Shown: one piece after another, positions 3,868-24,802 of the stretch
Position numbering within the stretch: the stretch's first letter is position 1
Layout of the letters: every line of letters begins with the position of its first letter
Assembly: GCF_001637325.1 (NCBI RefSeq)
Contig: NZ_LRXL01000012.1
Location: 1-64,000, forward strand
Source of the DNA: Cochleicola gelatinilyticus
GTDB lineage: Bacteria > Bacteroidota > Bacteroidia > Flavobacteriales > Flavobacteriaceae
Direction: 5' to 3'
DNA: 64,000 bases
Position numbers and translations under genes: made by a program
Notes under the pieces: generated by a model
Databases searched by the model: none
Seen by the model: the letters and a program-made list of their open reading frames with translations, nothing else
Told to the model about the DNA's origin: nothing

Positions 3868-4314
3868 ATGAATAAGAACGAATTAACAACTTTTTTTTGA
3901 AAGAGACTTGAACAAATTAATTACTGAAATAGAACTATACAAAAAAGAAGAAAATATTTGGCGAGTAGAAAAAGGTGTTTCTAATTCTGCAGGAAATTTA
4001 ACGCTACATTTAATTGGTAACTTACACACATTTATTGGAAAAGAAATTGGTAAAACAAACTATGTTAGAAATAGAGAACTTGAATTTACTCAAAAAAATG
4101 TTCCAAGAAAAGAGTTGATCGAAAGTATAAATGACACAATAGAAATGGTTAAAAATCACTTAATTCTATTACAAACGAAGAATTAAAAAAAGATTATCCA
4201 ATTTTAAAGTTTCCTAAAGTAGAAACAAATGAATATTTACTAGTTCATTTGATAAACCATTTAACTTATCATCTTGGACAAATAAATTATCATAGAAGGC
4301 TAATAGAGGAATAA
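3868..4314 (+). pseudogene. DinB-superfamily (DUF1572-like) gene with two frameshifts
   Basis: The reading starts at ATG 3868 (MNKNELTTFF) and runs into TGA after a run of eight T (3891-3898). With seven T it continues FERDLNKLITEIELYKKEENIW, GNLTLHLIGNLHTFIG and so on in the next frame. Near 4170 one base is missing and the original frame resumes as TNEELKKDYPILKFPKVETNEYLL and ends GQINYHRRLIEE. This full pattern, with His residues in LHLIGN and YHLGQINYH, is that of DUF1572/DinB-like four-helix metal-binding proteins of about 150 residues. The middle piece is open only from a TTG at 3908 to 4186. The two indels compensate each other. Either a decayed gene or sequence error in a homopolymer. 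Confidence 0.75.
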
Positions 4315-18556: not shown

Positions 18557-20035
18557 TTAACCATTATATTTTTCATTTAATTCCGCTACGATTGTTTCAA
18601 TTTTTTTGTTCTTTGCGGCTTTGTTCAAAGCGATCGGAGGGGCTTGCCGTACTTCACAGTCCTCTATCGAACAACGTTCACACGTAACTCCAACATTTCG
18701 AACGGGAATGGTAGGGTCTTTTAAAAAAGCTATTTTACGCTGCAATTGCTTATTTATAAGTAGCCCTACGCTAATACTTCGATATTGACCTTCTTTAAAA
18801 GGGTCTTTAGTGGCAGAAGACAATACCAGATACTTCACTCCTTCATTTTTATAGTTTGAAATTTGAATATCAAACTCATGTTCTTTTTCACTTAAACTAA
18901 TATCCTCTAAAACCTGTAAAGAAACCCATCTTCTGCAATAATGCTCATTTGTTTCATTAGCATGAGGTGCATGTTGATGAGATAAATGAAGTTCTTTGTT
19001 AAGGTAAAATTTATTTGTATGTGACCTATGAGTGAATCGTAAAAAAAATAAATTCTGAATATTAAATTCCTTCGGAAGCACATTCGTTAACCGCTGATAA
19101 AATGACTCGGGTGAAGCATTAAACTTTTGGATCGCACTTAAAAATAGTGAGGAATCAAAGGTTTTATTTTCAAAAAAACGTGTCATTTCTGAAGTGATCT
19201 TTTTCTTCGGAAGAAGTAGTGCCCCCGCAAAATAAGAAGCATAGAAGTTGGTTAATACTTGATCGAAAGATTCAAATTTTATCCACGGAAATGTATAGAG
19301 TCGGTCCTTAAAATCTAAAAAATTACAAGCGAGTTCTTTCGCATATATAAATGTTCTTTGCGCTTCATCAATTTCTTCAGCGAGCAATAGTGTTTTGGTT
19401 TTGGGAACAAACATAGAGCGTAATGTTCCTAAAGCTTCGTATTTACTTAATTCATCATTTTTAATTTCATAGTTATATTCTTCGATAAGTATTTCTTCGA
19501 GATCCTTAGACGAAATTTTGTTCTTTAAATCAATTTGATATGCTTCAGAAAATTTTAAAACTTGCGCTTCTAAATCATCAAAATAATTATTGTTAGCCTC
19601 TTGAAAGGAACGCACCGATGCTAAGAAAAAGTTTTCTCTACTAAAATTATAATGCTGTGCAATTTCAATTATGGTGCTTATAAAAGCAGTTACTTTTGCT
19701 GGAGCATTCGCTACGATATCGATTAAAGTACTTTCTTTTATTCCGAAGAGCTCTAACGGAATTTCTTTTAAAACCTTCGAACGTAATAAATCCCCAATTG
19801 GTGCTAAGTTTTTATCAAGTTTCAAAGAAACCATCTGGTCGTAAGGAACATCAAGTTTTTCAGAAAGAATAGAAATTTTATCGGGTTTAGGATATTTTTT
19901 TCCATTCTCGATTTCATTTAAATACGACTTCGATAATCCCGAAAGTTTCGATAAACCAAACAACGATAAATTCTTCTCAGTTCGTATCTGCTTTAGCTTT
20001 AAGCCAAAAATAAGTTTAATATAATCTTCTTCCAT
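18557..20035 (-). CDS. XRE/ScfR-like regulator of short-chain fatty acid metabolism
   Basis: 492 residues: N-terminal Cro/CI helix-turn-helix (about 8-65, GLSKLSGLSKSYLNEIENG), a long middle region, an IrrE-like domain (about 215-300) and a C-terminal DUF2083-type domain with CERCSIEDCEVR near the end (three conserved cysteines). This is the architecture of RamB, PrpR and ScfR, which sense acyl-CoA or acetate status and control isocitrate lyase and malate synthase. The zinc-protease motif HExxH is replaced by YAKELACNF, so it is a sensor rather than a protease. Divergent from aceB with only 126 bases between, containing a palindrome; it probably controls aceBA and itself. Confidence 0.85.
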   Translation of the reverse strand: MEEDYIKLIFGLKLKQIRTEKNLSLFGLSKLSGLSKSYLNEIENGKKYPKPDKISILSEKLDVPYDQMVSLKLDKNLAPIGDLLRSKVLKEIPLELFGIKESTLIDIVANAPAKVTAFISTIIEIAQHYNFSRENFFLASVRSFQEANNNYFDDLEAQVLKFSEAYQIDLKNKISSKDLEEILIEEYNYEIKNDELSKYEALGTLRSMFVPKTKTLLLAEEIDEAQRTFIYAKELACNFLDFKDRLYTFPWIKFESFDQVLTNFYASYFAGALLLPKKKITSEMTRFFENKTFDSSLFLSAIQKFNASPESFYQRLTNVLPKEFNIQNLFFLRFTHRSHTNKFYLNKELHLSHQHAPHANETNEHYCRRWVSLQVLEDISLSEKEHEFDIQISNYKNEGVKYLVLSSATKDPFKEGQYRSISVGLLINKQLQRKIAFLKDPTIPVRNVGVTCERCSIEDCEVRQAPPIALNKAAKNKKIETIVAELNEKYNG

Positions 20036-20074
20036 AAAAACAAATATACGGCTTTTAGTGAACTTCTATATTTT

Positions 20075-20104
20075 GCGAATTTAATTTTTTAGCGAACGTT
20101 CGCT
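20075..20104. promoter_or_regulatory. candidate operator between regulator and aceB
   Basis: Perfect 14-bp palindrome AGCGAACGTTCGCT at 20091-20104, with another GCGAA half-site at 20075-20079, 17 bases upstream of the GCGAA in the palindrome. It lies next to the candidate aceB promoter. RamB of actinobacteria binds paired TTTGC-type half-sites, and GCGAA/TTCGC is similar in kind. The regulator binding it is inferred from the divergent layout. Confidence 0.55.
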
Positions 20105-20126
20105 TGTTTTTATAAAAAGTTTGTCC

Positions 20127-20134
20127 TAATATTG
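20127..20134 (+). promoter_or_regulatory. possible aceB promoter -7 box
   Basis: TAATATTG, one mismatch from the Bacteroidota -7 consensus TAnnTTTG, 28 bases before the aceB ATG. A CTTG about 20 bases upstream (20103-20106), touching the palindrome, could be the -33 element; repressor binding there would block the promoter. Confidence 0.4.
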
Positions 20135-20161
20135 CAGTGTATTATTTAACAACATCTCAAT

Positions 20162-23548: not shown

Positions 23549-23626
23549 AAGTAAAATAAACAATAAAGCGTTTCAGAAGTAATACTTTTGAATATAAAAT
23601 CCCAGAACATTAGAAACAGCACTCTT

Positions 23627-24802
23627 ATGAAGCGAAGAAAATTACTCATGATTCCTGGTCCTATCGAATTTGAACCAGACGTTTTACAAGCCATGGCAAC
23701 ACCTACTCCAAGCCACGTAGCTCCCAACTTTATTGAAGTTTTTGGAAACAGTCTTGAGCTAATGAAAAAAGTATGGATGGCCCCAACAGGGCAGCCCTTT
23801 ATCGTAGCAGGAAGTGGGACGTTGGCAATGGATATGGCAGCAGCCAATCTCATAGAAAAAGGGGATGACGCTTTGGTTATTTCTACCGGATATTTCGGAG
23901 ATCGATTTAAAGATATTTTAGAACGGTACGGAGCAAATACGACACTATTAAAAGCAACAATCGGAGATGTTGTTTCTCTGGAAACCATCGAACAGGAGCT
24001 TCAAAAAAAACAATACAAAGTAGTTGCATTTACACATGTTGACACCTCTACAGGGGTATTGGTAGCTCCAGAACCTATTTCAAAATTAGCTAAAAAATAC
24101 AATGCATTAAGCATTTTAGATGGGGTATGCTCCGTAGCTGGTGAAATAATTAAACAGGAAGATTGGGGAGTAGATGTCGTTTTAACAGGATCTCAAAAAG
24201 CCATTGGTGTACCACCCGGTTTGGCATTATTAGTAGCGTCTCAAAAAGCAATGAACGCGTGGAAGGATCGAAAATCTCCTGTTGGTAATTATTATGCAGA
24301 TTGGAATAACTGGCTTCCTATAATGACTGCGTACAAAAAAAGACAGCCTTCCTATTTTGGGACTCCCCCAGTTAATTTAATTGTAGCACTAGAAGCAAGT
24401 TTAAAAATTATTTGTACTGAAGGTATAACCATACGTGTAAAGAAACATAAAAAGCTAGCGAAAGCATTTCAAGCTGCTATTAATGCATTGAACCTAAAAA
24501 AAATACCTAAAACTGATGCAATTGCTGCCCATACGTTATCCGCAGTGTACTTTCCTGAAGGTATCGATGGGGCGGCAATGCGCGCAAAAATGATAGAGAG
24601 TGATGTGATTATTGCCGGCGGATTACTACCTGAAATAAAATCCACCTATTTTAGAGTTGGTCACATGGGATCGGTTTCGGCAAACGACCTTTTAGCTGTA
24701 CTAGGGGCTTTAGAGCGTGCTTTAGTAGAATTAGGGCATTCGTTCGAGCCCGGAAAAAGTCTACAAGCTTTTCAAAGCACCTATTTACAGCCCAATACTT
24801 AA
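23627..24802 (+). CDS. class V aminotransferase, likely alanine/serine-glyoxylate aminotransferase
   Basis: About 391 residues from the ATG at 23627 (MKRRKLLMIPGPIEF); a TTG at 23588 is less likely. Class V PLP-dependent fold: LMIPGPIEFEPDVL, VAGSGTLAMDMAAANL, THVDTSTGVL, SILDGVCSVAGE, and the PLP lysine in VLTGSQKAIGVPPG. The sequence fits serine- or alanine-glyoxylate aminotransferases, which turn glyoxylate into glycine. Its place right after the glyoxylate shunt genes supports glyoxylate as substrate and suggests removal of surplus glyoxylate. A terminator separates it from aceA, so it has its own transcript. Confidence 0.85.
   Translation: MKRRKLLMIPGPIEFEPDVLQAMATPTPSHVAPNFIEVFGNSLELMKKVWMAPTGQPFIVAGSGTLAMDMAAANLIEKGDDALVISTGYFGDRFKDILERYGANTTLLKATIGDVVSLETIEQELQKKQYKVVAFTHVDTSTGVLVAPEPISKLAKKYNALSILDGVCSVAGEIIKQEDWGVDVVLTGSQKAIGVPPGLALLVASQKAMNAWKDRKSPVGNYYADWNNWLPIMTAYKKRQPSYFGTPPVNLIVALEASLKIICTEGITIRVKKHKKLAKAFQAAINALNLKKIPKTDAIAAHTLSAVYFPEGIDGAAMRAKMIESDVIIAGGLLPEIKSTYFRVGHMGSVSANDLLAVLGALERALVELGHSFEPGKSLQAFQSTYLQPNT

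Follow-up and report, generated by a model that had tools for sequence, protein, structure and literature searches.

A perfect 14-bp palindrome in the 64,000-nucleotide stretch of Cochleicola gelatinilyticus DNA analyzed here (contig NZ_LRXL01000012.1, positions 1 to 64,000; hereafter the window) lies between two divergent genes, one encoding a regulator of the ScfR/IsaR type and the other, aceB, encoding malate synthase, whose start codons are 126 bases apart. Comparison of relatives across Bacteroidota indicates that this palindrome, AGCGAA-N2-TTCGCT in its general form, is the operator of the regulator, and for the explanation as a whole, which includes a tetrameric protein, a coenzyme A (CoA) ester as ligand and the blocking of promoters, we estimate a probability of roughly 0.8. 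A sequence-only reading of the window had proposed that a regulator with a dead protease motif faces aceB across a palindrome and that a third GCGAA half-site lies in the same intergenic DNA; the arrangement and both sequence elements were recovered (Table 1). The third half-site, termed H2, is joined by a further one, H1, which carries one mismatch in 4 of 79 loci, the window among them. In the window, H1, H2, and the palindrome stand in an exact 17-bp register.

Conservation among close relatives was assessed in a scan of Flavobacteriaceae genomes (134 stretches, 102 relatives, 80 kept). aceB lies divergent beside the regulator in 78 of the 80 kept loci, and the exact 12-bp core GCGAACGTTCGC is present in all 78; the two loci without the core are the two without aceB. 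The expectation that regulator-bearing relatives would share the palindrome upstream of aceB therefore survived the test on which it had been staked (78/78 loci, 28/28 genera). Across 79 aligned divergons, including that of the window, the core and the T following it are invariant, and most bases of the surrounding spacer vary. Both half-sites are exact in 66 sequences, where the H1–H2 and H2–palindrome spacings are 17/17 in 41, 18/17 in 13, 18/18 in 11, and 17/18 in one. One locus (L035) has an extra 17-bp half-site unit upstream of position 4001, giving three direct half-sites ahead of the palindrome.

A second draw took one genome per genus from 199 genera in the window's family and overlapped in part with the first scan. 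Of these genera, 28 have aceB, 30 have the regulator, and 31 have the exact core. Every one of the 28 aceB-bearing genera carries both regulator and core, with the core no more than 120 bp from the regulator (co-occurrence of aceB and regulator, Fisher 4e-32, relatedness ignored). The core occurs without the regulator in three genera (G121, G181, and G182), each time inside an open reading frame (ORF); by eye, two of these ORFs are purL and one is an aminotransferase. Within the 3.39-Mb genome that contains the window, the 14-mer has a single exact place; among the matches listed there is no place with one mismatch and one with two, inside an ORF. About 71 places lie within three mismatches, compared with 73 for the reversed control. 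Nine loci with two or three mismatches were opened (L083–L091, of about 70 places), of which eight lie inside ORFs and one (L090) lies in no listed ORF and adjoins no known gene. Since such matches fall mostly inside ORFs, no further regulon member is claimed in this genome.

The site extends far beyond the family. A regulator profile (A1) identified the protein in 70 of 395 Bacteroidota genomes, two of them partial and left out. From the remaining 68 genomes, the 400 bp ahead of 69 regulators, with identities down to 31%, were scored against AGCGAA-N2-TTCGCT. Of these 69 regions, 61 contain a match with at most one mismatch; the best match has no mismatch in 49 regions, one in 12, two in two, three in one, four in four, and five in one. 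Among Markov shuffles, 0.2% reach one mismatch and none reaches zero. Regulators less than 57% identical to the window protein (n = 49) retain the relationship, with 36 regions at zero mismatches and 41 at one or fewer. All 20 members of the window's family have CG as the central dinucleotide; the remaining 41 have AT in 18, AA in six, CG in five, TA in four, TT in four, AC in three, and AG in one. Forty of the 69 loci have a divergent aceB no more than 800 bp away; 31 of these forty have zero, eight have one, and one has two mismatches, and loci in which the regulator adjoins some other gene still carry the palindrome. The palindrome is thus the conserved partner of this regulator, and its identity as the operator is as secure as comparative genomics allows; the regulator almost certainly binds it. 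Its recurrence across Bacteroidota, beside the regulator and near genes for fatty acid and acetate use, suggests that a control system shared by the whole phylum binds there. The earlier view of an operator for the glyoxylate shunt in Flavobacteria is too narrow, as the site is older than that view supposed, phylum-wide, and also found ahead of other genes.

aceB itself was found in 56 of the 395 genomes, 50 of which have the regulator (Fisher 4e-40, relatedness disregarded). The upstream regions of aceB in the six regulator-less genomes contain no site, with best matches at four to five mismatches, although only two of these six aceB matches (G579 and G364) exceed the malate synthase A cut-off and the stretch from G395 is short. 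Six genomes of genus g127 (L208, L210–L213, and L215) share AGCGTACGTTCGCT upstream of aceB, in which one base of the left half is changed. In G590, which encodes two regulator paralogs (L242 and L251), a palindrome lies within 400 bp upstream only of the paralog facing phosphoenolpyruvate (PEP) carboxykinase.

Additional half-sites also recur at a distance. Among 42 distant loci with the core, GCGAA lies at −17 to −19 in 10 and its mirror TTCGC at +24 to +26 in 13, so that one or the other is present in 21, compared with a mean of 0.23 and a maximum of two in shuffled flanks. The extra half-site occurs in 9 of 16 families and, when families were compared with neighbors by eye, is common where the neighbor is aceB or aceA and rarer elsewhere. 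Family f2, with aceB neighbors, has it in 0 of 4 loci, and f48, in which aceB does not adjoin, in 3 of 3, and the link between extra half-sites and glyoxylate genes is thus only a tendency.

The genes next to the regulator, and those next to further copies of the palindrome, give some indication of the regulon. Besides aceB, the regulator adjoins a fatty acid-CoA ligase followed by a 3-hydroxyacyl-CoA dehydrogenase in seven loci (L235, L243–L247, and L255), aceA alone in four (L258, L259, L261, and L262), aceA and then aceB in two (L253 and L254), PEP carboxykinase in one (L251), and aconitase in one (L241). In family f30 (L264, L269, L270, and L271) the neighbor is adenylate kinase, then an ORF resembling a zinc protease by eye; an acyl-CoA link is not evident there. 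One member each of the ligase, aceA, PEP carboxykinase, aconitase, and adenylate kinase was named by family search and the others by eye, on the strength of similar sequences. When 80 genomes were scanned for the exact pattern, the 53 with the regulator contained 87 sites (43 beside the regulator and 44 elsewhere; 13 for the reversed-pattern control) and the 27 without it contained four (control, seven), though all 27 belong to the window's family and the two groups are therefore unmatched for taxon. The 44 distal sites were opened except for six in G359 and G406. Among these 38, eight front beta-oxidation genes, two pckA (G390 and G606), and three aconitase (G339, G253, and G349). Two (G339 and G253) are 298 bp ahead of sdhC but 27 bp ahead of another, divergent gene; two front glutamate synthase and two dihydroxy-acid dehydratase; four lie inside the main ORF (L317, L320, L330, and L336); and the remainder precede genes that are porin-like, helicase-like, FabK-like or unknown, or have no clear gene after them. 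Sites in G402 front acyl-CoA dehydrogenases, a 3-hydroxyacyl-CoA dehydrogenase, an enoyl-CoA hydratase and an EtfB-like protein, and those in G267 FadE-like and 3-hydroxyacyl-CoA dehydrogenase genes. These distal names include sister-genome repeats judged by eye and many best matches that fall short of the NCBIfam cut-off, in many cases since the fetched stretch cut the ORF. The dihydroxy-acid dehydratase and glutamate synthase sites (L314, L315, L333, and L339) are perfect operators, 16–22 bases ahead of the former gene (G590 and G471) and 102 ahead of the latter (G505 and G561). Two further regions from regulator-lacking genomes (L340 and L341) show no gene start adjoining the site, and L318, a piece of a regulator, has no site.

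The protein belongs to a known family. ScfR was reportedly defined by Carter and Alber in 2015, and the window protein most likely belongs to a Bacteroidota branch within the ScfR/IsaR family of acyl-CoA regulators. An XRE helix-turn-helix (HTH) occupies residues ~10–69 (HTH_3, 42.6 bits vs. 23; HTH_3 is found in 41 of 41 members of set A2). The predicted model (mean pLDDT, the predicted local distance difference test, 76.6; pTM, the predicted template modeling score, 0.74) retrieved Mycobacterium tuberculosis PrpR (MtPrpR) first in fold searches (6cyj; Foldseek E 1.6e-11; VIA Z 24.1, root-mean-square deviation 4.5, 301 aligned, 18% identity), with IrrE/PprI/CapP among the next long matches at Z 13–14; the VIA list consists mostly of HTH rows, and only its PrpR and IrrE rows were used. 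Searches of solved structures with the single sequence and with a Flavobacteriaceae profile matched HTH domains and not PrpR; the phylum-wide profile reaches PrpR over the long C-terminal part (E 9.5e-5). The predicted fold is thus of the PrpR type, with an IrrE-like domain that lacks HExxH, as in ScfR/IsaR proteins. The absence of this motif had been proposed from the sequence and holds: in FIYAKELACNF (residues 229–239) both histidine slots are replaced (K233 and C237), and the HExxH zinc site that would mark an IrrE/M78 protease was found in 0 of 50 phylum sequences, though PF06114 (Peptidase_M78) matches 32 of 41 members, a fold-level similarity of sequence. As the dead motif is common to MtPrpR and 49 aligned relatives, it is a family trait and gives no special insight. 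C367 is kept in 50 of 50 sequences, and C452, C455, and C460 (the CX2CX4C motif) each in 49, a pattern that matches the ScfR/IsaR motif and would provide the four ligands of a predicted [4Fe4S] cluster. Residues of the HTH recognition region (S35, S37, Y38, E41, I42, E43, K47, and P49) are conserved in 48–50 of 50, in keeping with an almost unchanged operator. The gene context is one of acyl-CoA assimilation, with aceB in 78 of 80 loci and beta-oxidation genes, aceA, aconitase or PEP carboxykinase elsewhere. Fold, cysteines, and context thus uphold the kinship contained in the earlier label ScfR/RamB-like; the RamB equivalog NF038139 scores 49.7 bits against a cut-off of 700 (residues 11–286), for which reason the protein is called RamB-like and not RamB. 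PF09856 (ScfRs) gives 22.0 against a gathering threshold of 24 for the window protein, and 5 of 41 members match at E ≤ 0.001.

Table 1. Genes and predicted control elements around the palindrome, in positions of the window.
Feature	Position	Strand	Remarks
Regulator ORF, ScfR/IsaR type, 492 amino acids	18557..20035	-	XRE HTH, IrrE-like dead protease domain, GAF-like region, C-terminal CX2CX4C
Predicted regulator -7 box TATATTTG (TAnnTTTG)	20041..20048	-	perfect in 81/81 loci
Half-site H1 (GTGAA, degenerate in the window), within the predicted promoter of the regulator	20058..20062	+	exact GCGAA in 75/79
Half-site H2, GCGAA (third half-site of the sequence-only reading)	20075..20079	+	exact in 68/79, one mismatch in 9, worse in 2
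Predicted operator palindrome AGCGAACGTTCGCT, perfect, 14 bp	20091..20104	.	sequence and conservation in relatives
Predicted aceB -33 TTG, overlapping the palindrome by 1 bp	20104..20106	+	TTG at palindrome end in 71/79 loci
Predicted aceB -7 box TAATATTG	20127..20134	+	TAnn[AT]TTG in 76/79 loci
aceB, malate synthase A, 531 amino acids	20162..21757	+	over NCBIfam cut-off
aceA, isocitrate lyase of PRK06498 type, 535 amino acids	21885..23492	+	975.2 bits vs. cut-off 446

Promoters in Bacteroidota follow a −33/−7 consensus, and elements compatible with it flank the palindrome on both sides. On the aceB side, TAnn[AT]TTG stands at offset 35 in 72 of the 76 loci that have it (shuffled expectation 3.7%); together with the TTG it would form a −33/−7 promoter, in which case transcription of aceB would start near 20138 and the palindrome would be centered at about −40 and overlap the −33 element with its end. 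On the regulator side, the perfect TAnnTTTG lies within 45 bp of the start in all 81 loci and 4–11 bases ahead of the ATG, from which we infer a nearly leaderless regulator transcript whose promoter would have H1 between the −33 and −7 elements; by occupying H1 and H2 the regulator should then repress its own gene. In Flavobacteriaceae the half-site array is thus one that spans the predicted −33 element of aceB and the regulator's own predicted promoter. In the mechanism that we favor, the regulator would be tetrameric, with a [4Fe4S] cluster and a pocket for CoA, and its four HTH domains would cover the palindrome and the direct half-sites and, while no inducing acyl-CoA is present, block the −33 element of aceB and the regulator's own promoter; a CoA ester arising from acetate or fatty acid use would bind, change the oligomer, and free the promoters. 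In other lineages the same switch would control beta-oxidation, aconitase, and PEP carboxykinase. Confidence falls from binding, through the probable sensing of acyl-CoA by a PrpR-type pocket, to a mainly repressing action at aceB, toward which we only lean.

Repression at aceB is suggested by the predicted promoters and the positions of sites. In 71 of 79 loci the palindrome runs with its end into the −33 TTG, H1 lies in the regulator's predicted promoter, and pyc in Xanthomarina as well as two beta-oxidation genes of G267 (two and three bases after TAAATTTG and TATATTTG) have a site immediately behind the −7 box, a position from which activation would not be easy. The same protein and operator might instead activate aceBA from a class II position, with only the regulator's own gene repressed; we consider an activator at aceB rather unlikely, with several observations weighing in its favor and against repression. 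A palindrome centered ~40 bp ahead of the inferred aceB start occupies the usual place of a class II activator, the aceB −7 box contains a conserved non-consensus A in 72 of 79 loci, as in activator-dependent promoters, and the pckA sites of G390 and G606 lie upstream of the promoter, starting 64 bases ahead of the −7-like box TATTTTTG. Passages of the study of Paracoccus denitrificans RamB moreover describe it as an activator of its glyoxylate operon (PMC10370305). Other points count against the operator and regulon more generally: the phylum-wide scoring is no blind test, since the free center N2 was set after the same distant loci had been viewed, and for 8 of its 69 regulators the 400 bp contain no site with at most one mismatch (for G349 there is one beyond them); five checked aceB genes not adjacent to the regulator in regulator-bearing genomes (G240 and G287 not among them) are without a site; and only about 15 of the 38 distal sites front beta-oxidation, tricarboxylic acid cycle or gluconeogenesis genes, two of them ambiguously, with four lying within an ORF.

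That some other, unlinked regulator binds the palindrome, the ScfR-type protein being a mere neighbor, is very improbable given the co-occurrence of operator and regulator over 199 genera and the phylum, the lack of an aceB site in all six regulator-less genomes, and the persistence of the palindrome beside regulators in non-aceB loci and, nearly identical, in two aceB-less Xanthomarina genomes. A perfect dyad within AT-rich DNA could also arise by chance or as a structural element such as an RNA hairpin or a relic of restriction avoidance, an explanation whose likelihood we regard as negligible: by the predicted promoter the palindrome lies upstream of the aceB transcript, and an operator bound by protein accords with its free central dinucleotide, its single place in the genome, and a third half-site that can stand symmetrically to the left or right. 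The IrrE-like domain might, finally, still be a protease using other residues, or the protein might be cut by a partner protease in the manner of DdrO. The glutamate of HExxH is indeed kept in 50 of 50 sequences, yet the first histidine slot is R or K in all 50 and the second is never histidine, and MtPrpR, the closest solved fold, is described in parts of its report as lacking these residues and binding CoA (PMC6765138); proteolysis is accordingly a highly improbable route. Binding of the palindrome by the ScfR-type regulator as an acyl-CoA-responsive switch thus remains the preferred reading.

The history of Xanthomarina bears on how such a switch may change its target. No aceB was found in two Xanthomarina genomes (L045 = G001 and L056 = G002), both of which keep the regulator with a near-identical palindrome, GCGAACGTTCGT, at the place of H1. 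In both, AGCGAACATTCGCT starts 41 bases ahead of the ATG of pyruvate carboxylase (pyc), one base after the −7 box TACATTTG; Xanthomarina genomes with aceB (G003 and G004) have no site at pyc (seven mismatches). A general pyc operator was considered and rejected, as the best match has at least four mismatches in 43 of 44 pyc upstream regions of the family scan; of 12 pyc genes in 34 further genomes, 10 are without a site (G003 and G004, and eight others at five to six mismatches). G048 and G002 are apparently the same assembly, having the same contig coordinates, so that the evidence comprises two genomes and probably one evolutionary event. In G023, of another genus and without aceB, the regulator is reduced to a 270-residue C-terminal piece without HTH (L190, 1836–2648), no site better than three mismatches lies in the surrounding 5.5 kb, and the exact core is absent from the genome; the piece sits in the same neighborhood as the intact gene of aceB-less Xanthomarina (L191). 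We read these genomes, of which the two with re-use are related, as loss of the target, after which the regulator either decayed or was put to use on a different anaplerotic enzyme.

The genes downstream of aceB show changes of their own. Among 77 aceA-bearing loci, 68 encode an isocitrate lyase of the PRK06498 type with 80–87% identity to that of the window, and nine (L002, L037, L049, L057, L060, L065, L066, L075, and L077) a distant isocitrate lyase with 27–31% identity, behind the same regulator and operator. Judged from these sequences, the isocitrate lyase is exchanged in the nine loci while the control stayed. After aceA in the window, positions 23588–24802 hold a gene that by eye resembles alanine-glyoxylate aminotransferases, a relative of which was seen in 12 of 81 loci, most flanks ending too early to tell; it may be a glyoxylate-disposal member of the aceBA operon.

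Characterized systems resemble this one in part. MtPrpR (6cyj, 6cyy, 6cz6, and 6d2s) shares the predicted fold, the dead IrrE-like domain, CX2CX4C with a fourth cysteine and the acyl-CoA pathway context, whereas its similarity over the long C-terminal part is reached only with the phylum-wide profile; passages of its report describe a homotetramer with a [4Fe4S] cluster on CX2CX4C and Cys363, bound CoA, unconserved HExxH residues, and, unlike the favored role here, activation of the methylcitrate cycle (PMC6765138). P. denitrificans RamB, a class 2 ScfR, is reported to have a similarly divergent ramB-ms-icl arrangement and to be a tetramer that gives dimers with CoA esters and activates the glyoxylate operon via two boxes, and a section heading terms it activator and repressor; its two mutated boxes, TGACAAACCTTACAG and TGACAATACTGACTG as read from oligos 46 and 48, differ in being direct repeats without GCGAA (PMC10370305). 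With Deinococcus IrrE/PprI, an M78 metalloprotease, the regulator shares the fold of the middle domain (Z ~13–14) and not HExxH, absent from all 50 sequences here. Corynebacterium glutamicum RamB (NF038139), a named regulator of acetate metabolism, likewise combines an XRE HTH with a long C-terminal part and differs in its site, AA/GAACTTTGCAAA. One of six written forms of the palindrome occurs in 13 papers, and none of the 10 listed concerns a bacterial operator, as judged from title and abstract. No phylum-wide operator with a regulon was found in the literature searched, mostly without subscription papers, and an earlier prediction is possible (Carter and Alber 2015).

A wider reading, to which we give even odds, is that the operator with a half-site 17–19 bp off represents an ancestral phylum-wide acyl-CoA regulon, a functional counterpart of FadR plus IclR, in which simple palindromes at start sites would repress beta-oxidation and arrays of three to four half-sites, matching the four HTHs of a tetramer, would control the glyoxylate shunt; in Flavobacteriaceae the regulon would have been cut to one operator, and in part of Xanthomarina it would have been rewired, after the loss of aceBA, to pyruvate carboxylase, the rival anaplerotic route. 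According to citing passages (PMC9040609), the marine flavobacterium Dokdonia MED134 expresses its glyoxylate shunt in a light-dependent manner, and, as an uncultured Dokdonia genome (L050) carries the regulator-aceB divergon, the regulator is a direct candidate for this control. These results provide a predicted operator, in single-base detail, for the control of central carbon metabolism in a phylum for which no such regulon was found in the literature searched, and the Xanthomarina genomes preserve an apparent natural switch of this control from one anaplerotic route to another.

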